From positions 1 to 23,503 of IMG/VR virus record IMGVR_UViG_3300002835_001116: DNA of 23,503 nt; one strand, written 5' to 3'. Each line of letters starts with the position of its first letter. Positions within the stretch are counted from its first letter, which is position 1. The notes beneath the pieces were generated by a model. The model saw nothing but the letters and a program-made list of their open reading frames with translations. It was not told where the DNA came from and ran no database searches. This document shows, in pieces, positions 1-22,318 of the stretch. The DNA is from a virus. The translations under genes and the position numbers were made by a program.

Positions 1-3000
1 ACAACATCGCCAGTTTTTTGATAACCAGCATTTTGTCTTTCATCTACTCTGGTATAAACTTCCTTGAGAGTAAAGTTGTCTTCTTTTACCTGTGGTCTTA
101 GTACTGATTGTTGTGTATCAATAGAGCACTTATAATCAATAGATTGAAGATTACCAATGCGATGAGTTTCGAAATTATCTACAACAAAACCGCTCTTAAA
201 TCTATCAAGACCAATTTCATCCTTAATTTGCATATTTAAAGCTTGTTGCTCCAATACGCTGAGAAGAGTATAATATTCTAATCTTTCAATACGCTTTTCT
301 AATTTGCCGATATCACGCATAGTGTAACGCTTGTTATCGACAGGAATAATTCTCACATCTTTATTGCTGTCTGTATATGCAGGAATATAGAGATAGTATA
401 AAGCAATAGCGTCATCAATAATTTCTGGCTTAGATGGATTTAATGAAGAATTACCTTCTTTGATAATAAATTGTCCTTTCTTATCTAAAAATACTCCGTC
501 AATTCTATCGAGATATTGTGTTTCACTGAAAGAGAATGTGTATTCTAAGTTAAAATCTGATGCAGGAGATCCTGCTATAATGCCACCAGGACCAGAGAAT
601 TTAATATAATCTTGTTGCGAAAGTAAAGTCTTATCTTGGAATCCAGAAATAATAGTATCGTTATCAGCTTTTGGTCTAAAATCAATTACATCTTTTAGAG
701 AAGTAATTCCATACACAGAAGAATTGAATGATGGAATTTCTTCCGAACCAACACCAGCTTCGTGTAGATAAGAATCTACTGTGCAGAAATCACCTTGGGA
801 ATGCTCAAAATAGTCAAAACCAATAACTAGTTGACCTACTGGAGCTTCAAATCCAGGCTTTAAAATTATTCTGGATACATCATAATGAGTGTCACGTTGA
901 CCATCATCGAATGTAAATCTATTTGTTACATCTGTTCCAGAGATCAAATTGCCATTTGTATCTACTTTTGGTGGATTTGTTGAAGATCCTTCATAAACAT
1001 ATTTTAGCTTATATGCATCAGAATAAGAGAAAATTTCTACTTCTTCTGTATCATAATCCTGACCACGCAGAGGAATAACTCTATCGCCACTAGATGTAAC
1101 TACAATTCTCTTATTTTTGATTGCTGTCTTTAATCTTGGCTTGGCTTTGGTAACTTCAATAGTTGCCGACAGTTTTAACTTAGGGAAGTTTGAAGTTAAA
1201 TTGCCAAAGAAATTATTTGGTAATGTAATTATAACACTACCAGCAGTCAAGCCACTTGTAGTATCTGATGAAGTTTCGACATTAACATAGCTTGGATCAA
1301 TATAAAGAATATCTCCATTAGAAACTAGAGTTGAACTTCCTCTATCAATAACTGTAATTAGGAAGTTTTGTTCTGAGTAAGAAGTAAATCTTTGTGTGCC
1401 AAATGGTAGTTGAGCAGCAAATGTAACACTACCACCACTTGAAGAACCTGTAGTGATAAAATCTCTTCTTACATAATATTTGAACTTACTATCTGCACTA
1501 TCCTTGATTAGTGAACTTACTTGGCTACTACCTGTTGGGAAGATTAGACTTGTATTGAAATTTGAAATTTGTGGTCTTAATCTAACGACAGAAACATTAA
1601 TTGCATTTGCTGGCAATGCATAATCTAAGTAAATACGTGCTTTCTTTGATCCTTCTGGCTTAGTAGTATATTGAACGATCATTCTATTCGTTCTTCCTTC
1701 ATCATCAGCAAATAGAATTAAATCACCTTGCGTCAATAGCTTAGTTGGATCTCCACCAAAACCATTGCATTCAATATACTTGTCTCCAGCAAATCCAGTA
1801 AAACTGAAATCAGTTATGGGAGTTGTATCTGTATAAGCTGTCTTATTTACTTCGATATCAGCAGTAAATTTATTATTCTTTGCAGAACCATACTCAGCAA
1901 AGAATGACTTTACATTTTGTGGTGAGTAAGTGTATACTGTATCTCTATATAAAACTGGTTCCACTATACAAGTAGAAACTGTTGCTTCGGCTGAATTTAC
2001 AACAACAATAGGTGGAGTGGAATATTCTGCTGATACTGAATCTCTATCTAAAACATCAATTCTGTAAACTGAACTTCCTTCCGTAAATACTTTTACTTTC
2101 GAGTTGTCATATGAAACGCCATCAATGGTTACAGTTGGATTAACAAATCCAGCACCACGCTTGGCAACAATAAAGTGGGATATTGTATTTTCTTTAGCAA
2201 TACGCAAAATGTTTCCATTTTCGTCAGTGATGCTCTCGCCAGGCTGGAAGGTGCCTGAGAGCGTCTTTACGAAAAGGGTGTTACCATATGAGTAAAACTC
2301 GGTTAAGGAGCCTTCTACGACCCCGTAGGCACCGCTCTGGAGACCCTTGATGTACTTGCCTGGGGTGAATTGTTGGCTACTGATGTTACTTTCAGGAACA
2401 GTACTATCCAATAATAGTCTGGTGAAAAATACTGGATTGAAATAATTAAATTTGAAAGTACTGTTGTATGATGCAGTACCATCATTCAATCTGCCACGAG
2501 AAATAACAATATCAGTATCTTGATTAAAACCATTGCCTCTTTCTACTAGGCTAAAATTCTTTGGTTTAGCTAGACCAATAACAGGAGTAATAACTTCACT
2601 ATAATCTACTACAGAACCAAATTTATTTTGGTTTGCGAAAGCATCTGCTTGAGATAAAAATACATCACGTAATTTAGATGCAGATTGTTCATCATATTCC
2701 TTGAGGAATAATGATAGTAAATCCTTTTTACCGTATATAGTAAGCTCTAATAAAGCAACATCTGCAGCAAGATCTGGGCGATTTACTTTGGAATATGCAA
2801 TTGGTCTTACACTATCAATAGTTGATGGTGTTGTGCCAGTTCTTGTCTTAATAAACCAAAGATCATTTAATACAGAATCAAAGTTGCTATCATTGATAGT
2901 TTGGATTGGATTGGTTAAACTAGATACTGAGATATAGATAGTTTTAATACCATAACCAATTTCAAACCCTTCGCTTCTTCTGCTAATAGTTTGCTTTTGA

Positions 3001-4391
3001 TTGGATGCCGACTCTAGATCATTTAGACCAATAGTGCCATCATTAAATACTGAATTTAAAAATACAGTTGGGTATGCAGTTGCATCAGCACCTTCATCAT
3101 TTAATGGTATAGTTCCATATACGTTAGTAACTTTAAATTCAGCTAATCCTTGAGTCTTTAAAGTAATGTTATCACGAGTAATAGTATCTCTGGATTTGTT
3201 AATTGGTAGATATTTGGTTTCTCCATTAACAATTTCGTAGCCTCTTACATAAGCTTTGCCTGGACCTACACTAGCAAGAAGTTTGGAAGAAGCTTCTGAT
3301 TCAGAAAGACCATTAACTAAATTATTTGAATCTTTGGTAAAGATACCAAAATTATTATTTTTTTGATAATATTCTCTAACTTCTAAAGAAAAATTATCTA
3401 CAACGTAATCACCAGATTCATCATATGTTCTGCGAGCTAAAGTGCTTTCTAAAAGAGTATAATCAGCTTGCTTAATCTGCTTTTGAACTACACCAGATTT
3501 AATTGATAACAGCTGAATGAAATTTTTATCAGTCTGTGCTCCATATTCATAAGTTTTCAACTTCAGATTAATAGTTAATCTGTGGGCTCCTGGAGCAGTT
3601 GAATTTGAAAATCCTTTTGAATTATCATATAAAGATGCATCTTGCTCAGGAGCAATGATATTCTCTTCAATATCAAAACCAACAATCAATGATGGTTCGT
3701 TATAATACTTATTGATTACTAATAACTGTTCGTTATTTCTTACAAAATATCCATTAATAAAATAAATTCCTTCTTCTACTTTAACAGCAGAAGCAAATCC
3801 CATTGCGGGGCTTTCTTTGAATGATGATTGATTTGTATCTGGATCAGTAATTTTAATACTTGTTGGTAAGGCGCTTCCATCAGTACCAACAACAAGTAGG
3901 GGTGTATTAACACCATTAATAATTTCTAAAGTTTCGCCTTGACGAAAAGTTAGCTCATCCCCAGAATTGCCACTAGTTGTATATTTAACAAATAGTGTAT
4001 CGGATTCTGTTGATGAGCTATATTCTGCAGCTAAGACATTAGCAACAACACCAGATGTAATTCCCTGAACTTGTTGACCTATTAGCTTCTTAATATCATA
4101 TTTTTGGAAAACAATATTTCCATCTACATTCACTGCTACTTCTGAAACAGAAGACAGCTTAACGTAATCCAATCGAGTATTTAACCCGACTTCTCCAGGT
4201 ACTACTAAATCTCCTTGTTTAAATTGAAATTTACCGTAGCTTTCAATTTGATTTTGGAGAATAGACTGGAGGGAGGTTAACTCCCTCGTCTGAATTGAAT
4301 ATCCTGGTCTAAAAAGAACTTTGTAGAAATTCTTTTTAGCGTCAAAATCATCATAGTATGGGGATACATTAAGATTTGTCTTCTGTGGCAT
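1..4391 (-). CDS. DUF4815-type virion structural protein, partial (C-terminus off left edge)
   Basis: An open frame runs from the ATG at 4391 to the left edge with no stop seen, giving about 1,463 codons. It begins MPQKTNLNVSPYYDDFDAKK and continues with a segment around residues 20-55 containing FRPGYSIQTRELTSLQS, ILQNQIE and FKQGDLVVPG. That N-terminus (YYDDFD, PG..IQTREL..LQ.ILQ.QIE) is the hallmark I know from the DUF4815 family of T4-like cyanophage and other myovirus structural proteins. Its exact role is not established; position after gp8 suggests a peripheral baseplate or fibre-attachment protein. The rest is beta-rich. A GAGFVNPTVTIDG module lies near 2140-2180 and a VGQ/GITSG..A-type module near 4020-4090, resembling modules in gp7 and gp8. 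It follows gp8 by 39 nt with no Shine-Dalgarno, so it is probably co-transcribed with gp8. The family call is strong; the function is inferred. Confidence 0.88.
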   Translation of the reverse strand, partial: MPQKTNLNVSPYYDDFDAKKNFYKVLFRPGYSIQTRELTSLQSILQNQIESYGKFQFKQGDLVVPGEVGLNTRLDYVKLSSVSEVAVNVDGNIVFQKYDIKKLIGQQVQGITSGVVANVLAAEYSSSTESDTLFVKYTTSGNSGDELTFRQGETLEIINGVNTPLLVVGTDGSALPTSIKITDPDTNQSSFKESPAMGFASAVKVEEGIYFINGYFVRNNEQLLVINKYYNEPSLIVGFDIEENIIAPEQDASLYDNSKGFSNSTAPGAHRLTINLKLKTYEYGAQTDKNFIQLLSIKSGVVQKQIKQADYTLLESTLARRTYDESGDYVVDNFSLEVREYYQKNNNFGIFTKDSNNLVNGLSESEASSKLLASVGPGKAYVRGYEIVNGETKYLPINKSRDTITRDNITLKTQGLAEFKVTNVYGTIPLNDEGADATAYPTVFLNSVFNDGTIGLNDLESASNQKQTISRRSEGFEIGYGIKTIYISVSSLTNPIQTINDSNFDSVLNDLWFIKTRTGTTPSTIDSVRPIAYSKVNRPDLAADVALLELTIYGKKDLLSLFLKEYDEQSASKLRDVFLSQADAFANQNKFGSVVDYSEVITPVIGLAKPKNFSLVERGNGFNQDTDIVISRGRLNDGTASYNSTFKFNYFNPVFFTRLLLDSTVPESNISSQQFTPGKYIKGLQSGAYGVVEGSLTEFYSYGNTLFVKTLSGTFQPGESITDENGNILRIAKENTISHFIVAKRGAGFVNPTVTIDGVSYDNSKVKVFTEGSSVYRIDVLDRDSVSAEYSTPPIVVVNSAEATVSTCIVEPVLYRDTVYTYSPQNVKSFFAEYGSAKNNKFTADIEVNKTAYTDTTPITDFSFTGFAGDKYIECNGFGGDPTKLLTQGDLILFADDEGRTNRMIVQYTTKPEGSKKARIYLDYALPANAINVSVVRLRPQISNFNTSLIFPTGSSQVSSLIKDSADSKFKYYVRRDFITTGSSSGGSVTFAAQLPFGTQRFTSYSEQNFLITVIDRGSSTLVSNGDILYIDPSYVNVETSSDTTSGLTAGSVIITLPNNFFGNLTSNFPKLKLSATIEVTKAKPRLKTAIKNKRIVVTSSGDRVIPLRGQDYDTEEVEIFSYSDAYKLKYVYEGSSTNPPKVDTNGNLISGTDVTNRFTFDDGQRDTHYDVSRIILKPGFEAPVGQLVIGFDYFEHSQGDFCTVDSYLHEAGVGSEEIPSFNSSVYGITSLKDVIDFRPKADNDTIISGFQDKTLLSQQDYIKFSGPGGIIAGSPASDFNLEYTFSFSETQYLDRIDGVFLDKKGQFIIKEGNSSLNPSKPEIIDDAIALYYLYIPAYTDSNKDVRIIPVDNKRYTMRDIGKLEKRIERLEYYTLLSVLEQQALNMQIKDEIGLDRFKSGFVVDNFETHRIGNLQSIDYKCSIDTQQSVLRPQVKEDNFTLKEVYTRVDERQNAGYQKTGDV

Positions 4392-4430: not shown

Positions 4431-6260
4431 TCAGAACTCAATAACCAGTTTGATATCTTCGATTTGGTCAGGGGCTCTGGTGATTAGTCTTCTATTCTCT
4501 ATGTATATTACTTCTCCAGAGTTATTTTTGATTTCTGGAAGAGCTAAGCCATCAGTGAAAGTAGAACCAAGAAGAACCGTGCCATCAGCAAAAGTGGTGT
4601 CAACTGCACCAGAAGCTAGTGAAATGCCGCCAGTAATTGCATTAGAAGCATTTGATTCAAATGCACGAACAACACCATTATTCTTGTGAAGTTGTGGTGA
4701 TTGGATATACTTCAATACGCCAGCAGTTGTGCTGCCAGAATCTAAAGTCCATGAAACAACGGTTCCTAGAGCAGTTCCGCCAGTTACAGTTTGAGTAATA
4801 GTTTCGTCAGGAACAAAACCAGCAGTAGCACCAGTGATTTTTACGGAATATAAACCATTAAGTGTATCTACTGTTGCATAATCAGTAGTTCCATTTAGAA
4901 GTGGGTTTCTTAAAATACCAATTCTGCGGAAATCGTTATCAACTGGGAAGTCGCCAGAACCTTCAGCATAAGTTAAACGGATGTTAAGCATTACTCGCTT
5001 ACCATTTAGCTCTTCTTCTAGGTTAGCACCATGACCACCTTGAGGAGAAATGATTGGCTCTAATGCTCCAGTTGCGTTTGAAGCAACAGTTACAGCAGCA
5101 GTTAATGCACTGTCACTGAATAAACCATATGCAGTAGCTCCAGAACCTGTGCCAGTTGCTAAAGCAACAGTTGCATAAGTGTAACCACTACCAGCAGCAG
5201 TTACAGAAACTGAAGTAATTGCACCACCAGAAACAACAATTTGTACTTTACCACCAGTACCATCACCAGTAATAGGGGCATAGTGAGTGCCATTAGGTAA
5301 GTTTGCTCCAGCAGCCTCAACTAAAACTACACGTACTTCGCCATCTACAGCAGCAGCTTCAGTTGCGACACGAGTAGCATTTGTGCTATCAACAATTGGC
5401 ATAAAGTCAGTTGATAGGAATCTTAATACATCATCGGTTGGGATGGTGAACAAATATTTCCAGATATATGTGCCAGAAGGTTCTGAATAAATGCCACTTG
5501 CATAGGTTCCTTGTCCAGCAGCTGGAGTTGTTTTTGGCTCATATGTAGCATTTGTTCCTGTTGGGTTTGCAGGAGACTGGCCATTATAAAGACACTTGAA
5601 TACTTCATAATTTGAGTTTACAACATAGAACTTAGCATCAGAAATTGACGATGCTCCAGTTGCACCAGATTTGCCGATTTGACCACCACCGCCAGGGGTA
5701 GCCGAGTAATCAGGCTTCCACATGTCAAATTTAGGGTTAGCAACCAGATCCCAATTGTATCTTCTGATTACTGTTCTTGCATATGTTGAAGTTACTCTCT
5801 TAGCAGCAATAATATCATCATAGATATCATATTTTTCTGCTTGGTTATCTAGGGGAACAGGTGGAACATCTTCGGTAGCGTAACGATATACACCTGTTAA
5901 TGCCTGAGCACCAGTATCTGAAGTTCCGTTCCAGCCTTTTAGAGTTGAACCAACGTTTGGTGAAGCTGTTGAGCTAGGAAGAACATCATAAAGAAGTAAG
6001 CTATCCGCATTTACTACACGGATTTTTGCTTTAAATGTAGCACTTGCATAAGAAGAGCCAACGTAAACTTCTTGGCCCGCTACAAATGCAGTAGCATTTT
6101 TGCTGTAAATTTCTAAGTACGAATCCCATCTCTGAGAACGACCAACAAAAAAGTACATTCTGGTGCGCTCTACGCCAGTATCGGTAGAACCTTCCGAAAG
6201 AGATTCTAGAAATTGTCCAGCATTAAAAATCCTGAATTTATCTGAAATAATAGCAGCCAT
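4431..6260 (-). CDS. 8: Baseplate wedge subunit gp8
   Basis: This 609-aa protein matches T4 gp8 (334 aa, recalled from memory) in a series of collinear motifs. They are FVGRSQRW near residue 38 (T4 FGRSEPW), VIRRYNW near 163 (T4 VIPRRDW), YEVFKCLY near 215, YIWKYLFTIPTDD near 265 (T4 YVWEYLFEIPPD), and RRIGILRNPLL near 455 (T4 RQISIITNPL). The C-terminus SGEVIYIENRRLI...DQIEDIKLVIEF parallels T4 SGEMIYMENRPPI...DQTEEINILFTF. In T4, gp8 is a dimer in each baseplate wedge and contacts gp7 and gp10. About 275 extra residues lie mainly between the LFTIP and ILRNP motifs and near the C-terminus. They include a GSGYTYATVALATG module (about 360) and a DETITQTVTGG module (about 483) also seen in its neighbours. 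The ATG at 6260 lies 37-50 nt downstream of two overlapping late promoter boxes; only a weak AGAGAG sits ahead of it. Confidence 0.95.
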   Translation of the reverse strand: MAAIISDKFRIFNAGQFLESLSEGSTDTGVERTRMYFFVGRSQRWDSYLEIYSKNATAFVAGQEVYVGSSYASATFKAKIRVVNADSLLLYDVLPSSTASPNVGSTLKGWNGTSDTGAQALTGVYRYATEDVPPVPLDNQAEKYDIYDDIIAAKRVTSTYARTVIRRYNWDLVANPKFDMWKPDYSATPGGGGQIGKSGATGASSISDAKFYVVNSNYEVFKCLYNGQSPANPTGTNATYEPKTTPAAGQGTYASGIYSEPSGTYIWKYLFTIPTDDVLRFLSTDFMPIVDSTNATRVATEAAAVDGEVRVVLVEAAGANLPNGTHYAPITGDGTGGKVQIVVSGGAITSVSVTAAGSGYTYATVALATGTGSGATAYGLFSDSALTAAVTVASNATGALEPIISPQGGHGANLEEELNGKRVMLNIRLTYAEGSGDFPVDNDFRRIGILRNPLLNGTTDYATVDTLNGLYSVKITGATAGFVPDETITQTVTGGTALGTVVSWTLDSGSTTAGVLKYIQSPQLHKNNGVVRAFESNASNAITGGISLASGAVDTTFADGTVLLGSTFTDGLALPEIKNNSGEVIYIENRRLITRAPDQIEDIKLVIEF

Positions 6261-6314: not shown

Positions 6315-9300
6315 TCAGACGGAATATGGTATAATTTGATTTCCTGAATTAATAATATTTGATCCATTAATAATAGTACAACCAGTGAATGTTGATGTAG
6401 TTTTTCCAGTATATTGAACAACAGTATACTGTCCAGTAGAAGAAGCCTGTAATAAGTAACCTGTAGTTGGGAATGCAGAAATATTTCCCACAACACCAAT
6501 TATACTTGAAGAAGATAAATTAGATCCGACTGCATAGACTACAGGATTTTGAATAGAAGGAATTCCCATATTAAATCTTTCTCCTGTCAATGTAATTGCA
6601 GAAGTTGGTCTTTCCGTAAAATCATTAATTGTCAATGATGGATACGCTAAAGATAACTCTAGTAATGACATGCCAGAGTTAAATGTTCCAGTATCAATAA
6701 ACATATTATCTTGGAAAGATTTTAAAGTTAATCCAACGTTTCCTACTTGATATGAAGTATAAAACTCTTCACGGAATATGGTTTTATTAATAACATTTAT
6801 TGTACTTAAATTTCTCAATACAACTTCATTTTCTGGATCTTCTAATGTAATTTCTCCTGTTCTAGTCTTAATTGGGTTAAACAATACTACAGACTCTTCA
6901 AAATAATCTAGAACTCCAAACTTGCGGAATATTTCAATATCTGCATTTTTAGCTACATTAGTTGTAATTACTTTACTAAATGTGTATGCAGAAACAGGAA
7001 CATCAATTTCCGATACAATTGAAGAAGAAATTACATTATTAAATTGACTTATTAGTTCTGCTGTTTCTTTTAGAATTTCAATGTCGGTATTAACAATTGT
7101 GTTTGTGGCAGAACTTATTGTCTCAATAGAATTAGCAAGTATCGTTTGTATTGATGAAGAATAAATTTGTTGATAAGTATCAATTACAGAATTAATACCA
7201 GTTACGTACTCAGTGCCATTTTGCTGTATCGTAGTAACAAAACTAGTGATCTTAGAATCTGGTGGAGCAATAACAATTTCAGTAACTATACGGCTATTTG
7301 CATTTTGTATGTCAATTTGCTCAATTGATATAATATTTGTAGCTGTATCTTGTATAGTTACTACAGGAGTATCATCATATAAAACCTGAGTGCTTCTTAC
7401 CGATTCAAAATAAGTAGTACTGATTTGAGATACAGTAACTTCAGTAATAATTTCTGTAGTTGGCCCAGCAGAAACTACAGTTACAAGTTCAGGTAAGTGT
7501 CTAAGATAATCACCTGCATTATGAGTTGTTGCAGTAGTTCCGAATGTTCCACGAGCAACATCTAAGAAACGATCACTTAGCTTTTTGTTATAAGTTACAA
7601 TTTCTTTTCCAATAAGTAATCTACTAGAATCTGGGAATCTGCTTGTATCAGGAATATAAACAATAGTATCAGTTTCAGTGAGGGGAAGATCCAAGAATGC
7701 TCCAACATCATTAATAGAATATGGTGCAGTTTCAATAATAGAATTATTAACTACTTTGGTAATATTCTTTGTGATTTGTCTATCAGTTGAAGTTACTGTA
7801 GAACGAGAAATTACATCGAATGGAACATCAATAATATTTGTAATCTGTCTATCAGTAGAAACAATACTACTGAATTCAATTGGTCTAATAAATCCAGCAG
7901 AAACATAAAGTTCTGTGTATAATTTTTTATTTTCTAATCCAACATCATTAATTGTTTGAATGATTGCAGTGATATTTCCTTCAATACTGAGATTATTAGG
8001 ACCATTAAAAGAAATAATTTCTAGTACATTACCTTCAACTCTAGCAGTTTGTACATCAACAAAGCTAGAAAAAGTTAATGTAAATCCAGTAATTTCTATA
8101 TTTAAATTCAGCTCAGTAAAGCTATCAATTTTCCTATTAGGATCCTTGATAATATCATAACCCCTAGAAACTACTACTGTAGGAGCTTCTATGTATCCAG
8201 AACCACCGTCAAGTAATTTAAGATCAATTACTTGACCATCATATACAATAACTTCAGCTCTAGCACCACCACCAGTTTTATCATTTGGAATAAACTGTAA
8301 AATTGGTGGTGTATAATATTGATATGCAGTTGGTTGCAATAATAAGTTATATTTAAAATATAATTCTAATTCTCTCTTATTCCAATCTAAAGAAACAACT
8401 TTTCCATTGGCGATATTTGCAATAACTGCTAGTCCTTCGCCTCTAACAATATCATTATAGTTTGTAGCAAAAATTTTGCTATAAACATTATTACTTACAA
8501 AAGAATCATAACGATAATCTTTTGTTTTTACTTTAGCTGGTATTGATGAAACTTCACGATATGCTTTTTCTCCATCAATTTTAATTAAATCACCTGGATG
8601 TAAATTAGCATATGATCTGGTTTGTTCATACCAAGCTTTGTCAGCTAATTCAGAACCATATAAGTATCTGCTGCTAGATCTGCTTAATAATCTATCTCCA
8701 TCAGTATTCTGTTCGTATAAAGTAGAAAGTTGATATGGGCCAGAAATGGTCAGATCTGAAGGATCATTCAGACCTGGATGGGTAGAAAATTTGAGCGAGT
8801 AATTAGAATTGTATAAGACGTTTTGTGATGATAAAGTTATATTCCATTGGGTTTCCGTTGCTTTTCTAAAAGCTCTTAATTTTCCTAGTGCTTTATTATT
8901 TTGATATACCCAAATTTCTTTCGTTCCTACAGGACCATACCAATTTATAAACTGGGTATATGTACCAGAACCAGTAATTGTTAATGTTAATTTATTGTAG
9001 AAAGTATCTTTTTCAAAATCATAAACTGTTAATGATTGAGCAATATCTCTACCATATAATAGAATTATATTGACATCAGGATAAATGGCTTCGCCACTTT
9101 CTGACACAAAATAATTTAATGGTTTAGTAAATGTTATTGTAGGACCACTTATTCTATATGATTCTCCTTCTACTTGTAGAACACCATCAATAAAAACTAA
9201 AGCGTATTTTGAATTATCAATTTTCTTTACTCGTTGAGTAATTTCATCAATGATTAAAAATGGGCCAGTTCTTCTATACTCAATTAAATCATTATTAATT

Positions 9301-12300
9301 TTTAATCTCAAGTAAGAACCAATTGTATATCCAAATGAAGACTCCCTGCCAGATAGTTGTGGCTCGGTATTTTCATCTATGTCAGAATGTTTGATCGGTG
9401 GATCAGAAAATACAATTTTATCAGTAACATCAGGATCATCTGATCTTAAGATATAATATGAATTTTTTTCTGGTAAATAATTTAACTCTTCAGTTGAAGT
9501 ATCAATAACAGATGATTTTGCTTTTTGAACAATTGAGTTTAATGTTATGATTAAATTCTCATTTTTATCTGTCTTTACTATATCATTATTGTCATAATAC
9601 AAATCAAATTGCATATTTACGCCATCAAATTCAGACTCAATTGATCTTAATTTTCTTAAGTATTCAAAATTTAAATCATCTGTCTTGAATTTAAAATATC
9701 TACCATAAAATTTCTGGCCAGTAACATATTGACCTTCTGTTGTGTTTGATCCAAACGGAGGATAACTAAAAGTAATCTGTGTGCCGCTTACAGTGTATGC
9801 TTCGCCAGGTTCTTGTAAAACTCCATCTAAAGTAATTATTAATTGTTGCTCATTATATGGAGCAATTGGCAATCCAGATTTTTTATCAATTAATGTAAAA
9901 ACAGTATCTCCAATTGGCTGACCATCATAAGAATCTAATCTACCATTAAACGGAGTGGAAAGAATAAATTCGCCAGCGATAGTTTCTGAATTATCAAAAG
10001 TATCTACCGAAATAGATCCAAGACCTCTTTCGACTTTAAAAGCATTTAAGTTTACAAATGATTCGGTTACATATCTTCTAGTTCCAATTACGGAAATATT
10101 TTTTGCTCCAAGATTTATAAATGTAACTGACTCTGTTTTATTTGCTTCTATTTCTGATGGCATAGAAGTATTGCCATCAGATTCTACCGCAACTTCGCCA
10201 AACAGTTTAAAACCAGCTGGGTGTACAGTTTCTTTAATTAAATCTCTCCAAACAGAAATTGGAGTTTTTGATTTAATTACATAAGAGTAATCTTGATAAA
10301 AGAATGAATCAGTGATCTTTTGCGAAGAAACACCAATCTTTCCTTTATCCGAAGCAAATCTTCCTTGATTGTCAAAGAAGGTTCTGATATCTGGAGCAAA
10401 TACAGTTGATAATACTGCCTTAATCGTCGCAGTATTATTTTTGACCGTGCCTTTGATTGGTAATGATTTATCAATTACACCATTAATTTTTTCAAGTCTA
10501 AGAATATTGCTTCCTGGTCTAAATCCATTTTTGGCAACAACAGCAGAAAAAATAATATTTCCGTTATCATATTGAACTACCTTTTCGCCTATAGCAAAAG
10601 CATTGTCTACTACATCTTCAAGAAGTAGTGTTGTTGGAGATTTAAATTCGGGATATAATGTTTTGTCGTTATGGAAGGCATAACCATTTTCGACAATACT
10701 AACTGTTTGGGGAATGCCAATATTATTACTAGAAAAATATACTTTTACATCAGTTTCTATAATCTTTATTGTTGGGAGATATGAGTAATTTCTTCCTTCG
10801 TTGCGAACAGTAACTCTATTAATTGCGCCCGAATCTACTGATACTTCAAATTGAGCATCAGATCCATCTCCATCTACAACAATTGCTTTTGGTTTGGAAT
10901 AATTTGACCCACCATCAATAATAGCAATAGATTTAATTTTTTTCTCTACAGCATCATAAATCACATCAATTTTAGCTTCATACTCTTCGGCAACATCAAT
11001 TCCATACACAGTAGGAACACGACGATAATCATCTCCAAAATTTTCAATTAATATACTGTTTATTTTGCCGATAGCAAATTTAGATGATGTTGTGTAATCG
11101 ATTGTACCTGTACCATCATATTCTGGAACGCCAGATAGATTGTAAACAAATTTAGTATCTGTGGAATAAACTACTTCCTTTTCTCCTGTCAGTGGATCAT
11201 CTACTACTTGTAGATACGAATTTTGTGTATTTACATCAGATACTTTAATAAAATAAAAATAATTGGTGAAATTGATTGGTTTTTTCTGCTCAAATGTATT
11301 TGTTGAAATATTTGGTCCAAATCCCAATTTAATCGACAAATAAGATCCAGGGTTGCCAGGAGAAATGCTACTTACAAACTTTTCTTCTGTAAATACATTA
11401 TAATTTGAACTGGAAGAAAAGTCCAAATAAGTATCAGTCATTGAAAAATGACTTACATCAAATCTGTATTTGTAGTATTTTTGGATTTGTACAACTGGAT
11501 TGGCAGCAAAATTTGTGTTATCTTTGGAAAATTCTAGTCTATATTCAGAAGAATCCGTGGAAGAAATAGTTACTAATTTTCTTGGGCTGCTTGCATCATA
11601 AAAAGTATTACTTCTTAGTAGTTGATTTGGAGATGATGAAGAGTAATCAAACACCAATGTTAGTTCTTGTGTTTTTTCGTCATAAGAAGATACATATGGA
11701 TCATTTAATCCATCACCTTTAATTCTTTGTTCTTCAGTAAATCTGTATCTTGCATTCAATGAAGATATTTCTTTGCCATTATAATGATCTACAATACGAG
11801 TTTGATTTTGACCACGAACAACAAAGACAGATTTATTGATTTCGTTTACAGAAGTAACTTTAACAATTTCGTCACCTATCTGTAAAAGGTCATCATTAGA
11901 AACACTAACAATAGAATTCAATTTCAATTCTGTATTTTCTTTAGCAAATCCAACATGATCAACTAATAAAGTAAGTCTTTGTGTAGAAACACTCGATACT
12001 AATCTATTCAGATCATCATCGGCTACAGTTAAAATATCTCCTTTTCTGTAACCAGTACCTTTATTTGTGATTATTACCTGTACAACTCCACCATAATTAG
12101 AACCATTTGCACCAGAAACGATTATAGTAGCTCTAGCGTTACCAGGATCGCCAGGAAGACCAATTTCATTTCTTGCTGTAGTATTATTTTGAAAAACTAA
12201 TTCTACGTTGGTATAAGTGCCGACAGAGTAATCTACGCCACTATTTAATAGATCATAACGACCTAAACCAAGGTCATTAATCTTTTTGATTACTCTAGGA

Positions 12301-15300
12301 GCTTTTAATGTTACTTTTTGATAATATCTTTTTCTGACATAATATTCTGTTTCAGTTAAAGAATCATCTGGATTTACATCAATAATAACTTTATCGCCAA
12401 TAGTTAGATTGTGATTCTCATCTGTTTCTACAATGGCAATATTGTCATTAATTGTGTTAGCAACGATGCCAATACTTAATGAATTTAGAATAATAATTTT
12501 AGAACCAACAGTATCATTTAAGTTACCACTCTTTAGGAATAAGGTGTTATCAACTAAGAAATTACCAGTTAATACTTTTAATTTTAAACTATTTTGATTG
12601 TTAGTAGTTTCTAAAACCAATCCAGTAGCTACTGGATCATCAATGCCATTTGATAAAGATATGACACTACCTGCAGTAAATGAAGAGTTTTGACTTAAAA
12701 CTAAATTAATTACATTAATAGTGGATTCAATTTCTTCATTTGGTTCAAAAGATCCACTAACATCTCTTAAAACTAATTGATTGTTATTAATTACGTTACC
12801 AATTAATGTACCAACAGCACCAGTTGATGGTTGGGTGATAGTATCACCTTCAAAATAATATGCAGTCTGTAACGTTTTAATTTCTGTAGCTTTTGTTTGT
12901 TTTGTTTCCAGAGATAAAACATTTTTGCCTACAACAGAGGCTACTGAAGCTGCTGCCCCACTTCCTTCAGTATTCGAATTATTGATTCTTACTACAGAAC
13001 CAACTTTAAAGTTATTGTGGGAATCTTCTACTGTAGCACCAGATACTCCACCAGTTTTGACACTTTCAATATAAGCATATGCACTAGAGCCATTATTTTC
13101 TAATTCAGGAGTTCTTAATCTTCTAGCTTTTACTGGAAGATCATTTTGTGAAATATTTGAATTGTAATTAGAGTCTACAGGTAAAGAATAATAGTTTTTA
13201 CCTAAAATATAAGGAAAAACTGGAACATTACTTGAATTGACTGTCAAGAAATACGCATAAACACCATTTGGATAATCAGGAGTAACACAAAATCTACCAT
13301 TATTTTCGTCTAGCTCTGTTTTTCCTGTGTTGACAGATGGTTTCCATTCATAGTCTTCAATAAAAGTACCTAATGGATATGTGTTTACCGAAGGACCATT
13401 TAGACGAGAAGATTTTAATTGATAACCAGAAGATAACCTTACTACCAAAGAAGAAGGATCTGTTGGATTTTGGTATCCAAATGGACCATAAATTGGCACA
13501 CCATCATAAGCAAAACCAAGTATTGGTGAATGAGTTTTATATGATGGCTCGTTAAATGCAGAATTTAAATTATCATTGAGCAGTATTCTCAATCTGGTTG
13601 GGTTTGCTATTCTGCCGTAAACATAATCTTTATCTTGTCTATTGATACTATCATAAGTTTCGACAACATAACCATAGCTGTCATCAACTTTTAATTCATT
13701 TTTCTTTAATCTATCAAAAGACCACTTCTCGATTTCAGCAAATGCACTTGCTTCTGTTCCTCTAGCATCTTCTATTACTTCAACTACAACATTTTCTTTG
13801 GTGTAAAACTTCCCTTCGTCTACTTTGACAAAATCTACAAGTTGACCTTTTGGTGATATTACAGCTGTATAATCTGCAAATTTGCCTCTACCTGCCAAAT
13901 CAGTGATTCTAATAACAGGTGGAGATGAATAGTATTCACCTGGATTTCTAATAATTAAACTAGTTATCTTGCCACTAGTAACTACAGCATCTACTTTGGC
14001 TCCTCTACCAGAAGTTATAGTTATTGAAGGAATTCTTGTAAATGATTCGGTAGTATTGATCGCAATTGATTCTAAAACTTCACCTGATAAAGATGCATTG
14101 GCTTTCTTTGGTTGATCGTTAATTAATACAAATGGAGGGTTCTTGTACCCTGTGCCATTTTTTGTTACTGTTATTTTAGTAATTTTGCCAAAATTGACAA
14201 ATTCACTGTCTTTGTGGTTTAAAACTAGTGTACCATCAACAAAAATACCAACGTCTCTATTGCCAGTTGAGTATACTTCTGTTGTTGTGGTGGGATTTTT
14301 TCTGATTAAACGAAGTAAATTCTGACCAACTAAGTTTACGTCAACTTCACTCGACAAAATATCATGTGATGGATAACCAGAAGAACAGATGTAATAATAC
14401 TGGTCATCTTCGTAAATTGCTGAAACATTAGCGAGTTCTTCAGAAACAGCATTTTGAAGTGCTACATTAGATTGAATACTTGGTGAAAGATTGGATTCGT
14501 TAATAATCCACCTAACATTATTTGTTGTCTTATTAAAAATTATTGGATCTCTGGTTTCAAAACCAGAATCTGAAATTTGGATAGCATCTTTTTCTTCGGA
14601 ATAAGGTGCTGCTTGAGCAACATTTAAGTTGTATAAAATTCCTAAAGTTAGTAAAGATGTTTCTTTGCAAGTTACTGTCGAGAATGAATATACATTATCT
14701 CCTGCAAAATGTGTAGAAGGCGGTGTTCCTCGTTGATCTACTACAAATTGAGTTGCATTTTTTGCATTATATTTGATAACTTCATTGCCAATCAAAATTT
14801 TTCCAGTAGACTTCCAACCCATGGTGGAACCTACATTAATTTTTTGTCCTGTGGATAATCCTGTGGTGATTGATTTTCTTAATGTTGTTTTGGAAGCAAT
14901 CTCAAATGTTCCATTAATTGTAGCTGGATCTAATATAATTTCGTATATGTCACCTTCTTCTGTAGATCCTTTGAATACAACGTTATCAACAATAGCCGAT
15001 GCATACAGCATATCTGGCTTTGTTTCGTCTAGTGCTTGAGTTAGACGTTCTCCAATTATTGATAAAGGATCTCCAGACAGAAACTTTACTTTTAAAGAGT
15101 ATGTTGATACCCAATCAGAAGTAGATGCTTTGATTGTGGAATCTTTTGGATTGTATACTTCAGGGATATCTCCTGCATCTCTGGATACAATAGAATTAAA
15201 AATAAATTTAATTGACTTATCAGTACCTTTTGCTTTATAAAATTTACTGATATTTTTGATCAGGGTTCTTTTATCAACCTGACCCTTCAAATACTTTTCT

Positions 15301-15821
15301 GGGAAAGCTCCTAAGTACTGAGACTCGAAGTTTTTAATGAATGCATATAAAAACAGATTACTTACATTATAAACTAACTGCCCCGCTTCATGGGAGGCTG
15401 ATTCTGTAGATACAAATGTAGTTTCTGAATAAAGGTCTCCTAGAGTAGTATTTCCACTAACTCCTCTAGAAACATCTAAAAATTCTGTATCTGTTCTAGA
15501 TTTGTAGAAACAGATTTCATTATTGATGCGAATATAACCATTCTCTTTAGGGAATGATGTTGCATCTAATACAGTAATACTAGCAGCATTATCACTAATA
15601 TTAGATACTAGTGTGGTATATTGATTTAAAAGATTCTCTTCATAGAAGTCAATATCACGATATTTTGTGATATTACTAATAATATCGATGGGTTGACCCT
15701 GCGACTCTAACTGCTCGTAGTACTTTTCTACGAACTTAGAAAAATTTACGTATTCGGAAGATATGAACCCTGGTAACTGTTGTTCGACGAGGGTTGAAAT
15801 TTTTCTAGTTTTTGGAGCCAT
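6315..15821 (-). CDS. 7: Giant baseplate wedge protein, gp7-like, with YHYH module
   Basis: This 3168-aa protein sits exactly where T4 gp7 (1032 aa) sits, between gp6 and gp8. Two blocks resemble the C-terminal part of T4 gp7 as I recall it. Residues 20-212 contain YVNFSKFVEKYYEQLES, QVDKRTLIKNISKFYKAKG and KGTDKSIKFIFNS (T4 KGIEASYKFLFKV). Residues about 1855-1875 contain SVWRDLIKETVHPAGFKLFG (T4 SSRWKSDVIRFVHPVGFGFI), followed by VTFINLG (T4 FINVG). About 1,600 residues are inserted between them, including a YHYH-type module at about 766-880 (GFAYDGVPIYGPFGY, then NGRFCVTPDYPNGVYAYF). Several GxGYxxxP repeats and four LxIGxEIxxY...DVxRG modules are scattered along the chain. Residues about 2570-2970 are rich in I, T, S and V and repeat STDRQIT. 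The ATG lies 5 nt after the gp6 stop, so translation is probably coupled. In T4, gp7 is the scaffold on which the wedge assembles. The assignment to the gp7 position is firm; the rest of the chain is beta-rich and unassigned. Confidence 0.85.
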   Translation of the reverse strand: MAPKTRKISTLVEQQLPGFISSEYVNFSKFVEKYYEQLESQGQPIDIISNITKYRDIDFYEENLLNQYTTLVSNISDNAASITVLDATSFPKENGYIRINNEICFYKSRTDTEFLDVSRGVSGNTTLGDLYSETTFVSTESASHEAGQLVYNVSNLFLYAFIKNFESQYLGAFPEKYLKGQVDKRTLIKNISKFYKAKGTDKSIKFIFNSIVSRDAGDIPEVYNPKDSTIKASTSDWVSTYSLKVKFLSGDPLSIIGERLTQALDETKPDMLYASAIVDNVVFKGSTEEGDIYEIILDPATINGTFEIASKTTLRKSITTGLSTGQKINVGSTMGWKSTGKILIGNEVIKYNAKNATQFVVDQRGTPPSTHFAGDNVYSFSTVTCKETSLLTLGILYNLNVAQAAPYSEEKDAIQISDSGFETRDPIIFNKTTNNVRWIINESNLSPSIQSNVALQNAVSEELANVSAIYEDDQYYYICSSGYPSHDILSSEVDVNLVGQNLLRLIRKNPTTTTEVYSTGNRDVGIFVDGTLVLNHKDSEFVNFGKITKITVTKNGTGYKNPPFVLINDQPKKANASLSGEVLESIAINTTESFTRIPSITITSGRGAKVDAVVTSGKITSLIIRNPGEYYSSPPVIRITDLAGRGKFADYTAVISPKGQLVDFVKVDEGKFYTKENVVVEVIEDARGTEASAFAEIEKWSFDRLKKNELKVDDSYGYVVETYDSINRQDKDYVYGRIANPTRLRILLNDNLNSAFNEPSYKTHSPILGFAYDGVPIYGPFGYQNPTDPSSLVVRLSSGYQLKSSRLNGPSVNTYPLGTFIEDYEWKPSVNTGKTELDENNGRFCVTPDYPNGVYAYFLTVNSSNVPVFPYILGKNYYSLPVDSNYNSNISQNDLPVKARRLRTPELENNGSSAYAYIESVKTGGVSGATVEDSHNNFKVGSVVRINNSNTEGSGAAASVASVVGKNVLSLETKQTKATEIKTLQTAYYFEGDTITQPSTGAVGTLIGNVINNNQLVLRDVSGSFEPNEEIESTINVINLVLSQNSSFTAGSVISLSNGIDDPVATGLVLETTNNQNSLKLKVLTGNFLVDNTLFLKSGNLNDTVGSKIIILNSLSIGIVANTINDNIAIVETDENHNLTIGDKVIIDVNPDDSLTETEYYVRKRYYQKVTLKAPRVIKKINDLGLGRYDLLNSGVDYSVGTYTNVELVFQNNTTARNEIGLPGDPGNARATIIVSGANGSNYGGVVQVIITNKGTGYRKGDILTVADDDLNRLVSSVSTQRLTLLVDHVGFAKENTELKLNSIVSVSNDDLLQIGDEIVKVTSVNEINKSVFVVRGQNQTRIVDHYNGKEISSLNARYRFTEEQRIKGDGLNDPYVSSYDEKTQELTLVFDYSSSSPNQLLRSNTFYDASSPRKLVTISSTDSSEYRLEFSKDNTNFAANPVVQIQKYYKYRFDVSHFSMTDTYLDFSSSSNYNVFTEEKFVSSISPGNPGSYLSIKLGFGPNISTNTFEQKKPINFTNYFYFIKVSDVNTQNSYLQVVDDPLTGEKEVVYSTDTKFVYNLSGVPEYDGTGTIDYTTSSKFAIGKINSILIENFGDDYRRVPTVYGIDVAEEYEAKIDVIYDAVEKKIKSIAIIDGGSNYSKPKAIVVDGDGSDAQFEVSVDSGAINRVTVRNEGRNYSYLPTIKIIETDVKVYFSSNNIGIPQTVSIVENGYAFHNDKTLYPEFKSPTTLLLEDVVDNAFAIGEKVVQYDNGNIIFSAVVAKNGFRPGSNILRLEKINGVIDKSLPIKGTVKNNTATIKAVLSTVFAPDIRTFFDNQGRFASDKGKIGVSSQKITDSFFYQDYSYVIKSKTPISVWRDLIKETVHPAGFKLFGEVAVESDGNTSMPSEIEANKTESVTFINLGAKNISVIGTRRYVTESFVNLNAFKVERGLGSISVDTFDNSETIAGEFILSTPFNGRLDSYDGQPIGDTVFTLIDKKSGLPIAPYNEQQLIITLDGVLQEPGEAYTVSGTQITFSYPPFGSNTTEGQYVTGQKFYGRYFKFKTDDLNFEYLRKLRSIESEFDGVNMQFDLYYDNNDIVKTDKNENLIITLNSIVQKAKSSVIDTSTEELNYLPEKNSYYILRSDDPDVTDKIVFSDPPIKHSDIDENTEPQLSGRESSFGYTIGSYLRLKINNDLIEYRRTGPFLIIDEITQRVKKIDNSKYALVFIDGVLQVEGESYRISGPTITFTKPLNYFVSESGEAIYPDVNIILLYGRDIAQSLTVYDFEKDTFYNKLTLTITGSGTYTQFINWYGPVGTKEIWVYQNNKALGKLRAFRKATETQWNITLSSQNVLYNSNYSLKFSTHPGLNDPSDLTISGPYQLSTLYEQNTDGDRLLSRSSSRYLYGSELADKAWYEQTRSYANLHPGDLIKIDGEKAYREVSSIPAKVKTKDYRYDSFVSNNVYSKIFATNYNDIVRGEGLAVIANIANGKVVSLDWNKRELELYFKYNLLLQPTAYQYYTPPILQFIPNDKTGGGARAEVIVYDGQVIDLKLLDGGSGYIEAPTVVVSRGYDIIKDPNRKIDSFTELNLNIEITGFTLTFSSFVDVQTARVEGNVLEIISFNGPNNLSIEGNITAIIQTINDVGLENKKLYTELYVSAGFIRPIEFSSIVSTDRQITNIIDVPFDVISRSTVTSTDRQITKNITKVVNNSIIETAPYSINDVGAFLDLPLTETDTIVYIPDTSRFPDSSRLLIGKEIVTYNKKLSDRFLDVARGTFGTTATTHNAGDYLRHLPELVTVVSAGPTTEIITEVTVSQISTTYFESVRSTQVLYDDTPVVTIQDTATNIISIEQIDIQNANSRIVTEIVIAPPDSKITSFVTTIQQNGTEYVTGINSVIDTYQQIYSSSIQTILANSIETISSATNTIVNTDIEILKETAELISQFNNVISSSIVSEIDVPVSAYTFSKVITTNVAKNADIEIFRKFGVLDYFEESVVLFNPIKTRTGEITLEDPENEVVLRNLSTINVINKTIFREEFYTSYQVGNVGLTLKSFQDNMFIDTGTFNSGMSLLELSLAYPSLTINDFTERPTSAITLTGERFNMGIPSIQNPVVYAVGSNLSSSSIIGVVGNISAFPTTGYLLQASSTGQYTVVQYTGKTTSTFTGCTIINGSNIINSGNQIIPYSV

Positions 15822-15826
15822 CTAGA

Positions 15827-17626
15827 TTACTCTTGATATGCGATGAACTTACTGTTTGCAATATCAATGTCAAGGTATACATTTCTCAAAGCATTGATAT
15901 CATTGGACGCTGGTTTTACACGAATCTCGATTCGATTGTCAAAATAACTACCTTTTATGATAGTTAAATCATACAGCATAATCTCTCCCTTTTCATAATT
16001 TATGTCTCCAACAAAATCGTTCAAAACAATCTTATCACCAGTTAAAGAGTCTATTCTATATAGGACAATTTTGGCAGCCCTATCTTCCAAATACACTGTA
16101 TAATTGGGATATTCGCTAACAACAAACCCAGATGATTGCATCACAGGCTCTTCACAATCAATGTAGAATTGGTTCTGGAAACAAACCTCATAAAAGAAGG
16201 TTGAGTTGATAGAAGGATAAAAATCCTTTCTCATCATTACGGTTGTTTGGTTGGAATTAATTGACCTGTCTGCGTCATCAATTACGCCAACTGCTTTACT
16301 GTATCTAAATTTACCATTGAATTTTTCAACGTCAGATGTATCAATATAATTTTGTAGTCCAGAAATTACTTTTGAACGAATTTCTTCAGGAACTAATGTT
16401 GTGATCTGTCTGTTGTAGAAAATTTTAGATGATAACTCAACATACAATATAGATGGATTAATAATTTCAGGAGTTACCGAGGCAACCATATACTTCTTCA
16501 ATTCACGTACAATTTCTTGTTTTGTATATGAAGATAGTGCAGCTGAGTTATTTGGCTTGATTGAAATCTTTACTTTACCATATTCAGGTGGTTCTGCTTC
16601 TTCGCCACCGTAAATAATGATATCAGCGACCGCTGGGTAAATATTCCTGACAATAGCAGCATAATCAGCGGCTGTAACTGCACGATCTTGAGTGCCATAA
16701 TACTTCGGAGCATTAAATTTGATCTTCGAAATGCTTTCTACTTCTTCGCCACCACTAGCAGCAGCATTAGTAGTTACATTAACAATGCTTAGCGGGTAGT
16801 CTGAATTTTCTTCTAAGTCTTCTAAAACACCACTGAAGGTGAAAGATCTAGCTCCATTCGTATCAGAACCGTTTGTGGTGAGATAACTAATCTCAATATA
16901 CTCACCGTTCTCTAATTTTCTACCTAAAATACCATCACCAAAGAAAACTTCGTATTTTTCATCTTCAATTTCTTCAATAAAGAAAACATTTGATGATGGG
17001 TCAATATTTAAAATGTTATCAGCAAGTTGGTAAATCTTGTATGAAGTAGCGTTAGCTGATGGGTATACTTTAACTCTAATGCTAGTGGTATCAATTGCAG
17101 GGTTTTGGAGAATAAAACGCTGACTTTGTAATCCAGTATTAACTGTAAAAGTATTTGTGATTAATGATCCTTCGTAAATTGCAACTTGAGAAAACGAAGC
17201 TTCACCATTAACTACAGAAGCAGTGTGATCTTCAGTTGCAACATACTGGTATAAATTGTCGTCAAATGATGTTACAAACCCAGTTCCTTTCTTTAGGATA
17301 ATCTCTTTGGGTGCTGTGCCACTAAATTCGACATTAAAACTAACTAAAGCCTTGGGGGCTGTGATTGACTTGGGACGGTAGCCTAATTGCTTCGCTAAGG
17401 CTACTACGTTGTCCCTGAGGGTGGCTGAATCTAGGAATAGCTCATTGACTACCAGATTGGTGTTAAACGCCGTGTAGTAGGTATTATAGGCAAGTACGTC
17501 AAGCAGATTACTCCATACCGACCCTTCAAAGTCATAATCAGTAAAACTAGTCTGCGCTCTCAAATATTCTTTGAGTGCAGTCTTAATTTGTGTGAAATCT
17601 AAATTAGATACCTGAGCGTATGGCAT
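15827..17626 (-). CDS. 6: Baseplate wedge subunit gp6
   Basis: This 599-aa protein (T4 gp6 is 660 aa) has the typical N-terminus. LDFTQIKTALKEYLR, FTDYDFEGSVWSNLLDVLAY, NTYYTAFNTNLVVNELFLDS and TLRDNVVALAKQLGYRP match T4 gp6 motifs (YDFEGS...LLDVLAYNTYY, NEMFLDSAQLRDSVV). T4 gp6 forms the continuous dimeric ring that ties the six wedges to the hub; it belongs to the broader baseplate-J-like group. The central part contains EIPKK-like beta segments, VFFGDGILGRKLENGEYIEI (about 220-245) and the TAADYAAIVRNIYPAVADI segment (about 318-336), both characteristic of this family. The ATG immediately follows the gp25 TAA with no gap, so the two are probably translationally coupled. The first 90 codons (17370-17530) are visibly richer in GC than the rest. 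Confidence 0.97.
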   Translation of the reverse strand: MPYAQVSNLDFTQIKTALKEYLRAQTSFTDYDFEGSVWSNLLDVLAYNTYYTAFNTNLVVNELFLDSATLRDNVVALAKQLGYRPKSITAPKALVSFNVEFSGTAPKEIILKKGTGFVTSFDDNLYQYVATEDHTASVVNGEASFSQVAIYEGSLITNTFTVNTGLQSQRFILQNPAIDTTSIRVKVYPSANATSYKIYQLADNILNIDPSSNVFFIEEIEDEKYEVFFGDGILGRKLENGEYIEISYLTTNGSDTNGARSFTFSGVLEDLEENSDYPLSIVNVTTNAAASGGEEVESISKIKFNAPKYYGTQDRAVTAADYAAIVRNIYPAVADIIIYGGEEAEPPEYGKVKISIKPNNSAALSSYTKQEIVRELKKYMVASVTPEIINPSILYVELSSKIFYNRQITTLVPEEIRSKVISGLQNYIDTSDVEKFNGKFRYSKAVGVIDDADRSINSNQTTVMMRKDFYPSINSTFFYEVCFQNQFYIDCEEPVMQSSGFVVSEYPNYTVYLEDRAAKIVLYRIDSLTGDKIVLNDFVGDINYEKGEIMLYDLTIIKGSYFDNRIEIRVKPASNDINALRNVYLDIDIANSKFIAYQE

Positions 17627-18019
17627 TTATCGTGTTCTCTCTAGGAAAAATGCTACATTAAGTGGAACGTCTTCTCTACCAATAATTTCGAAGATTAATT
17701 CAATATCAAAACCATTTTGATCAAAATCAGGTACTGTATTCACTGCAAGAACTTTAATTCTTGGCTCATATGCTTTCAGAGTATTTTCAATCTCTGCTGA
17801 TACCATACCAGCAGTACCATAATCAAGAGGTTCGAACAATAATGAAGAAATAGAAGAACCTAAATTTGCGTTGAAAAATCTCTCACCTCTGTTGGTTAAC
17901 AATAGGTTAACAACAGACTGCTTGATGGCAGCCTCATCCTTGGTGACGATTAGATCGCCAGTGATAGGATGAGGCTTAAATGTGATATTCAGATCTTTAA
18001 AGGTAAGAGTCTTAGCCAC
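17627..18019 (-). CDS. 25: Baseplate wedge subunit gp25 (GPW/gp25 family)
   Basis: This 130-aa protein matches T4 gp25 (132 aa) in length and motifs: AAIKQSVVNLLLTNRGERFFNANLGSSISSLLFE, then IENTLKAYEPRIKVLAV and FDIELIFEII. T4 has SIKNSLLGIITTRKGSRPFDPEFGCDLSDQLFE and YEPRIDKLAVNVIP. gp25 is the small wedge protein, related to GpW/VgrG-system TssE, that joins gp6 and gp53 and initiates sheath assembly. The start is GTG at 18019: an in-frame TAA occurs five codons upstream and no ATG fits. No Shine-Dalgarno is visible. An ATAAATA box only 20 nt upstream would give a very short leader. It is the first gene of the wedge operon here. Confidence 0.96.
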   Translation of the reverse strand: MAKTLTFKDLNITFKPHPITGDLIVTKDEAAIKQSVVNLLLTNRGERFFNANLGSSISSLLFEPLDYGTAGMVSAEIENTLKAYEPRIKVLAVNTVPDFDQNGFDIELIFEIIGREDVPLNVAFFLERTR

Positions 18020-22211: not shown

Positions 22212-22253
22212 GGCTCTGTGTGGTGGTGGGAGGCTGTCTTGCCCCCCGTTGAA

Positions 22254-22278
22254 CATAGTATGGCACCCCCTGAGGGGT
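22254..22278 (-). promoter_or_regulatory. Promoter cassette upstream of GP88
   Basis: On the minus strand a short hairpin ACCCC-TCA-GGGGGT (22265-22278) runs directly into TGCCATACTATG (22254-22265), followed by a GGGGGG run. The TACTAT fits a -10 element and lies 45 bp before the GP88 ATG. No -35 is visible at normal spacing. The same box occurs at 20560-20572 and 23094-23105. Confidence 0.55.
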
Positions 22279-22318
22279 CTGGGGTCAGTTGGTGGACAGT
22301 GCCCCAACTGGCACAGGG

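Follow-up and report, generated by a model that had tools for sequence, protein, structure and literature searches.

A giant protein in the gp7 slot of a T4-like baseplate operon with a gp7-type core probably divided by a large insertion

The established composition of the baseplate wedge is (gp6)2-gp7, which implies six copies of gp7 per baseplate. In T4 the peripheral baseplate is built from separate proteins and the N-terminal arm of gp7.

Loops and tails of gp7-like proteins have been described as docking sites elsewhere. According to the available part of PMC10457771, domain I of XM1 gp17 is discontinuous (residues 1-79 and 107-133), and the loop inside this domain and the C tail each dock six spikes. 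In the available text of PMC8894135, the gp7-like part of Alg12 in AlgoCIS is described as the binding site of tail fibres and as a re-engineering hotspot. For marine phages, the accessible portion of PMC7029224 states that cyano- and pelagimyophages have no T4 Gp7 and that VrlC appears to stand in for it. Sullivan 2010 (PMC3037559), likewise as far as its accessible text goes, counts gp7 among the structural proteins of the non-cyanophage core, divergent into up to nine clusters.

The window analysed here is the whole 23,503-nucleotide stretch of virus record IMGVR_UViG_3300002835_001116. Among described proteins, S-PM2p084 of phage S-PM2 (3,048 aa, T4-GC 826) shares with the giant protein of the window its slot, both halves of a gp7-type core, a split of similar length between them (1,513 versus 1,509 residues) and an N block that is 63% identical. 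It differs in that its C-terminal domain is a separate ORF following an in-frame TAA and in that its record label is virion structural protein only. The proteins of P-SSM2 (5,195 aa) and P-HM1 (4,446 aa) also occupy the gp7 slot, have both halves and are labelled gp7 baseplate wedge, whereas their splits measure 2,167 and 2,284 residues and their N blocks are only 28% and 33% identical to that of the window. T4 gp7 (1,032 aa) has in common with the window protein the helical core region, the start of domain V and the return segment. However, no counterpart of its ~640 N-terminal residues or of domain VI was found in the window, and its two segments are parted by domain V alone. The short gp7 of Rhizobium phage RHph_I1_18 (528 aa) and the viral-contig proteins of L098-L177, which have both halves in the same order, form a bridge to T4, but their splits are 175 to 896 residues long and some of them (RHph_I1_18) have little C tail. 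XM1 gp17 is similar in its discontinuous domain I and in having two extra segments, the loop inside it and the C tail; it is 242 aa long with a loop of 27 residues, and the likeness is one of description in the available part of PMC10457771, not of sequence comparison.

Giant genes of this kind, some of them named gp7, are thus already known. The relation of their split core to T4 gp7 was not found in the searchable papers, and a split gp7 core is not described among the titles and abstracts listed from open PubMed Central papers.

The gp7 slot and the two halves of the core

On the minus strand of the window, Pfam and PHROGs gave the gene order gp25, gp6, giant ORF, gp8 and VrlC-type protein (Table 1), which places the giant ORF between gp6 and gp8 in the baseplate operon. 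Its frame opens with ATG and has no internal stop. The preliminary description had placed a protein about three times as long as T4 gp7 in the gp7 position, and both statements hold: the protein is 3.07 times the length of T4 gp7.

Table 1. Positions of the genes and protein regions in the window
Feature	Position	Strand	Basis
Putative giant gp7-type baseplate wedge protein, 3,168 aa	6315..15821	(-)	ORF; gp7 slot; PF23786 matches; two further viral contigs
gp25	17627..18019	(-)	PF04965
gp6	15827..17626	(-)	PF21379, PF21871; phrog_219
gp8	4431..6260	(-)	PF09215; phrog_438
VrlC-type protein, runs off window	3..4391	(-)	DUF4815; phrog_358; HTVC008M VrlC match
Core N half, first part (residues 1-69)	15615..15821	(-)	Short gp7 relatives, prob 99.9, E 9.3e-35; PF23786
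Small extra module within N half (residues 70-152)	15366..15614	(-)	Without counterpart in RHph_I1_18 (hhalign)
Core N half, second part (residues 153-311)	14889..15365	(-)	Block 1 at 198-210; residues ~240-311 are counterpart of T4 domain V start
Insertion (residues 312-1834)	10320..14888	(-)	HMM limits (1,509 residues); AlphaFold2 of 312-1500; alignment of 23 giants
YHYH domain PF14240 (residues 756-864)	13230..13556	(-)	99.4 bits, cut-off 25
Insert stretch with predicted beta-barrel of ~75 residues (residues ~1176-1358)	11748..12296	(-)	Structure aligner
Core return half (residues 1835-1877), block 2 at 1856-1874	10191..10319	(-)	PF23786 235-281; hhalign prob 99.3, E 3.5e-20
C-terminal extension (residues 1881-3168 and stop codon)	6315..10181	(-)	Identity and codon comparisons
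Most variable C-tail part (residues 2601-2985)	6867..8021	(-)	Mean pairwise identity 0.30; bins 2601, 2801 vs L005
C-terminal domain phrog_9689 (residues 2990-3167)	6321..6854	(-)	PHROGs; separate ORF in S-PM2

Two segments that the preliminary description had placed near the C-terminus of T4 gp7 are indeed present there, KGIEASYKFLFKV at residues 738-750 and SRWKSDVIRFVHPVGFGFI at 873-891. Their counterparts in the window protein are KGTDKSIKFIFNS (residues 198-210, block 1) and SVWRDLIKETVHPAGFKLF (residues 1856-1874, block 2). The segments are 122 residues apart in T4 gp7 versus 1,645 in the window protein, and ~1,290 residues follow block 2, close to the 1,300 first estimated. The preliminary idea of a T4-like domain split by a huge insertion needs to be qualified: sequence profiles assign both blocks, in order, to one gp7-type core with a very large module-rich segment in between, but in T4 the two segments are already parted by Pfam domain V (96 aa, 766-861). 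Via short relatives, window residues 211-311 correspond to T4 gp7 751-826 and thus reach into domain V. The extra module at residues 70-152 is related to stretches at ~328-375 and ~2721-2771 of the same protein (internal BLASTP repeats).

Direct BLASTP against T4 gp7 was weak (E 0.017 for block 2, 0.32 for block 1) and was dropped as a decisive test, as an unrelated pairing (0.026) ranked between the two blocks. With phmmer, the full-length protein had no match in the PDB at E<=1. The Pfam models Gp7_helical, Gp7_5th and Gp7_6th, all present in T4 gp7, had no match in the window protein at E<=1, nor in residues 1-330 at E<=10. Domain VI of T4 likewise had no Pfam counterpart, and for T4 residues 1 to ~640 no significant counterpart appeared with PDB phmmer, BLASTP or the short-relative profile (the profile comparison being limited to short relatives). 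The window protein does not have the domain architecture of a T4-type gp7 in the sense of Pfam.

Because pairwise similarity to T4 gp7 is weak, shorter relatives were used as a bridge. Phage records contain shorter forms of the gene in RHph_I1_18 (528 aa), Cr30 (767), Melnitz-2 (896), phiM7 (1,006) and DLP_6 (1,288), and a scan of viral contigs yielded at least 80 loci, 71 of which were passed to the ORF script and 61 of which had closed frames. A profile of 22 short relatives, compared with a profile of eight T4-type gp7s, aligned RHph_I1_18 residues 1-196 with T4 629-826 (prob 98.6, E 1.4e-15). A second match followed in order, RHph_I1_18 477-502 with T4 862-887 (E 0.0032, with a prob of only 9.9). 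The N halves of the giants (n=33) matched the short profile at prob 99.9 and the T4 profile at 90.9; for the return halves (n=31, those in which the motif was found) the values were 99.3 and only 50.8. The profile comparison with T4 gp7 that had been proposed as a check came out in favour of homology: short relatives scored 137.7, the N half of the giants 60.0 and their return half 40.1, while the best of 40 column-shuffled T4 controls per query reached 27.8, 27.6 and 26.8, respectively, and reversed T4 controls 16-22. In a search of 177,635 PDB sequences with an HMM of 44 short viral-contig proteins, the top two hits were gp7 (E 6.8e-11 for 9f4a and 2e-6 for T4), followed by a third-ranked sequence at E 0.061.

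The externally built Pfam model PF23786 (Baseplate_wedge) matched the window protein twice, in one frame and in order. Profile positions 10-206 lie at residues 10-210 and positions 235-281 at residues 1835-1877, so that neighbouring parts of the model are 1,624 residues apart in the protein. Both scores (17.1 and 19.3 bits) are below the cut-off of 27, with E 9.3e-6 for the return half; the N part alone scored 17.6 bits, and the model was absent from the hmmscan output for the full-length protein at E<=1. All 44 short relatives were matched by PF23786. HMMs of the two halves matched all eight T4-type gp7s in order, with sequence E values, for a set size of 20, of 4e-14 to 7e-10 (N half) and 6e-5 to 6e-3 (return half); in T4 itself the return-half match was weak (domain E 0.029). 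As controls, the N-half HMM gave E 6.5e-7 with the VrlC-type protein of the window (over a shared beta module), 0.034 with gp6, 1.6 with gp8 and 0.47 with the reversed protein. The return-half HMM gave 0.67 with the VrlC-type protein and 0.68 with the reversed protein.

The helical core and the return segment thus have homologues in T4-type gp7 in the same order, by profile comparisons and HMMs. These results support the view that both blocks belong to one ancestral gp7-type core, and the sequence data likewise support homology, order, operon position and a graded series of insert sizes. We propose that the giant protein serves as the gp7-type subunit in the (gp6)2-gp7 wedge. Its core would be encoded as residues 1-311, including the core-bundle helices, and the return segment 1835-1877, with ~1,500 residues inserted between them at the old insertion site of domain V and ~1,290 residues of C tail after the core; the two halves would fold together beside gp6. 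This reading as a whole appears likely to us, and its architectural part, a split gp7-type core with a large insert, very likely.

The insertion and the C tail

Split lengths were surveyed with the half-HMMs in 100 proteins, among which P-HM1 was counted twice (L087, PHM1) and 22 match by construction, as they built the half-HMMs. Both halves were present in 99 of the 100; L172 is without the return half. Among the 99 relatives the split ranges from 175 to 2,284 residues and falls into groups of 175-179, 243-344, 398-507, 605-896, 1,476-1,595 and 2,137-2,284. By HMM limits the window protein (1,509) belongs to the group of 1,476-1,595, together with 28 contig giants and S-PM2 (1,513). In S-RIM2, a single CDS of 6,378 aa carries the block matches ~3,300 residues apart, judged by match positions outside the HMM survey; this gp7-slot CDS (L183:2141-20001) follows gp6 and is recorded as hypothetical protein. 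By sequence the window protein is a middle-sized giant, and the event appears to be growth at an existing insertion site, since the T4 segments are already parted by domain V and domain I of XM1 gp17 is likewise in two pieces.

AlphaFold2 predicted window residues 312-1500 to be nearly all beta (pLDDT 69.5, pTM 0.38). With Foldseek, this model had no match in the PDB at E<=0.001 but 83 matches at that threshold among predicted viral proteins, and the named proteins among the best 50 of these 83 were mainly from cyanophages or uncultured phages. In a second look, only a barrel of ~75 residues stood above the rest, and other parts may still have known folds. The barrel resembles modules of a phage capsid structure, the JBD30 baseplate and the Chi tail tip (Z 9.2-10.7), with matches to 9in6_M (Z 10.7, 1.4 A over 76 residues), 8rk3_b (Z 9.9, 1.8 A over 74) and 8vjh_A (Z 9.2, 1.7 A over 74). 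It is of a common type, as unrelated ATP synthase barrels reach Z 7.5 and elongation factor barrels also come next. The bin of residues 801-900 is the most conserved in the insert, with 0.70 identity to the window protein and a pairwise mean of 0.66. The YHYH domain reads YAYF at the place of what we presume to be the name-giving residues. Beta modules recur inside the giant protein (internal BLASTP) and in its gp8 and VrlC-type neighbours, as if modules moved among baseplate genes.

In 23 long giants, which are near relatives of the window protein, the length of the insert is nearly constant (1,495-1,569 residues). Mean pairwise identity in this set was highest of nine regions for the return half (0.78), followed by 0.67 for the N half and 0.51 for the insert. 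Four successive stretches of the C part gave 0.50, 0.43, 0.30 and 0.38, that is, 0.30-0.43 from residue 2291; minimum lengths of the C part are lowered as some of the 23 giants are cut by contig ends. In a codon comparison with relative L005, based on raw counts and not on dN/dS, silent differences outnumbered amino-acid changes in each of the 200-residue bins that cover residues 1-2200. Amino-acid changes prevailed in bins 2201, 2601, 2801 and 3001, with bin 2401 dominated by silent differences. The insert, being conserved and of constant length, behaves like scaffold, and the variable far C tail like a changing outward part.

The insertion itself was earlier taken as a possible adhesin facing the host. 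Its YHYH domain, its predicted richness in beta structure and a barrel akin to modules in capsid, baseplate and tail-tip structures from other phages would suit such a role. However, the constancy of its length, its higher identity compared with the C part and the excess of silent changes fit this idea poorly, and we regard it as unlikely. Fibre docking or host contact would be a more plausible role for the faster-changing C tail.

We therefore favour the split gp7-type wedge subunit with a structural insert. As both ends of the insert would stay at the wedge, it would have to loop out to the periphery of the baseplate, where six copies of its beta modules may form the outer baseplate. The variable C tail may hold fibres or touch the host, in parallel to the loop and C tail of XM1 gp17. 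We consider the chances of this functional part, with the outer baseplate formed by the insert and fibre docking or host contact left to the C tail, to be about even. A wider generalization is more tentative still: in marine T4-like phages the peripheral baseplate may have grown inside gp7 at two old spike-docking sites, the loop in the core fold and the C tail, with a single core fold tolerating natural insertions that range in size from a short loop to over 3,000 residues.

The C tail also varies in its gene structure. In S-PM2 the giant gp7 ends in TAA, followed immediately by the in-frame ATG of the next ORF (L089:22139-22144), and the domain encoded by that ORF is fused in the window protein. 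Among 28 viral-contig giants surveyed, it is fused in 20 of the 20 with a C-tail match; of the eight others, seven are cut by the contig end and one is without a match. The TAA of S-PM2 may reflect a recent split, read-through or a sequence error. DLP_6 (L085:4609-8475) carries a long threonine-rich repeat tail after the return half, and L098 ends in a similar sequence. The C tail of BUCT-ZZ01 contains tandem repeats of ~18 residues.

One core or separate domains

Block 2 might instead lie in a separate domain; its likeness to gp7 would then go back to duplication or shuffling of a module, and the two halves would not pack together. The protein is rich in repeated modules, and the module that closes the N half recurs in the VrlC-type neighbour. 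Moreover, packing was predicted only in a relative and with moderate confidence. This relative, L100 (558 aa), was modelled by AlphaFold2 from 44 sequences with a mean pLDDT of 73.6 and a pTM of 0.50, the core helices and block 2 being of moderate confidence. In a Foldseek search of the PDB, the only three matches of the model at E<=0.001 were two T4 chains that have the length of gp7 and a chain of similar length from 9f4a, with TM-scores of 0.12-0.13 of the query and an rmsd near 19 A.

A second aligner placed model residues 62..512 on T4 gp7 702..895 (Z 9.4, 171 residues, rmsd 15.5 A). The preliminary description had proposed a structure model of the chain as a test of packing between the two blocks; in the 558-aa relative this alignment would be compatible with packing, but the TM-scores are low. 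Model residues 92..512 also aligned with 449..538 of 9gtp_2G, a baseplate chain of a Streptomyces injection system (Z 5.3, 2.7 A over 68 residues), and the unrelated chain 6wuq_B likewise spans both ends of the model (Z 4.0). The model of this short relative, whose aligned ranges give end residues only, leads us to infer one domain for both blocks.

Three observations argue against separate domains. The best match of the return half falls after the N half in the window protein, HTVC008M, BUCT-ZZ01 and all eight T4-type gp7s; both segments lie within one Pfam model (PF23786); and the return half is the most conserved region of the giants. We consider an origin of block 2 in a shuffled, unpacked module quite improbable and retain the single gp7-type core in two halves.

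VrlC, record labels and distribution

A further possibility is that gp7 was lost in these phages and that an unrelated structural protein, VrlC in the published account, took its place. The available text of PMC7029224 states both the absence and an apparent substitution, and direct BLASTP to T4 is weak. Against this, VrlC (VlrC) follows gp8 in phiM7, DLP_6, P-HM1 and HTVC008M, all of which have another gene in the gp7 slot; the gp7-slot gene of HTVC008M has both halves, and profile and fold searches return gp7. VrlC as a substitute for gp7 was dropped on account of this separate gene and of the gp7 profile and fold matches, and loss of gp7 appears very improbable. The gene order in P-HM1, S-PM2 and HTVC008M is consistent with a gp7 slot, and the VrlC-type protein of the window matches HTVC008M VrlC at 44% over 423 columns (E 7e-100).

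Naming in the records is uneven. The gp7 label is already in those of P-SSM2 and P-HM1; other records read structural protein, VrlC (KF156338) or head closure Hc2 (HTVC008M). KF156338 gives the name VrlC to the gp7-slot giant itself, and the sense intended in the available part of PMC7029224 is therefore uncertain. The 1,016-aa gp7-slot protein of HTVC008M (L181:5983-9033), labelled head closure Hc2, contains both gp7 halves. The label may stem from shared modules, as phrog_3465 and phrog_460 bear the same name.

Window residues 1-200 matched 464 of 50,697 phage records at E<=1e-5, a figure that counts matches and not protein sizes; 457 of these records are named Synechococcus phage, Cyanophage or Prochlorococcus phage. 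Giants of 2,995 to 6,378 aa were found in the fetched records of the named cyanophages S-PM2, P-HM1, P-SSM2, Sf-FS3 and S-RIM2. Growth of an insertion at a loop of the wedge, as first suggested, is likely, but with 464 matching records and giants in five named cyanophages it is not special to the phage of the window. Synechococcus phage BUCT-ZZ01 (L182:4869-6692) has a compact gp7 of 607 aa, which indicates that infection of cyanobacteria does not require a giant one.

Fusion of genes by an assembly or sequencing error, conceivable for a 23.5-kb virus record from a collection, was dropped as practically negligible, since the 9,507-base frame recurs whole and ungapped in two further contigs of different collection number, which differ from it by 2 and 6 substitutions, and the homologues in cultured phages measure 3,048 to 6,378 aa. 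At the DNA level, a search against phage records gave one short match only, and tandem repeats within the giant ORF were trivial.

If the split gp7-type core is correct, gp7 would be restored to phages for which the available text of PMC7029224 reports its absence, and cyanophage proteins now called only 'virion structural protein' would gain a place in the baseplate. It would also mark one insertion site where the sizes found in nature form a graded series. This site may serve for studies of host recognition in abundant marine phages and may suit the engineering of contractile machines.

Elsewhere in the window, no tRNA and no Rfam family at gathering scores was detected. An ORF at 21465-22307 (-) matches GP88 (PF17338) with E 8.7e-41.
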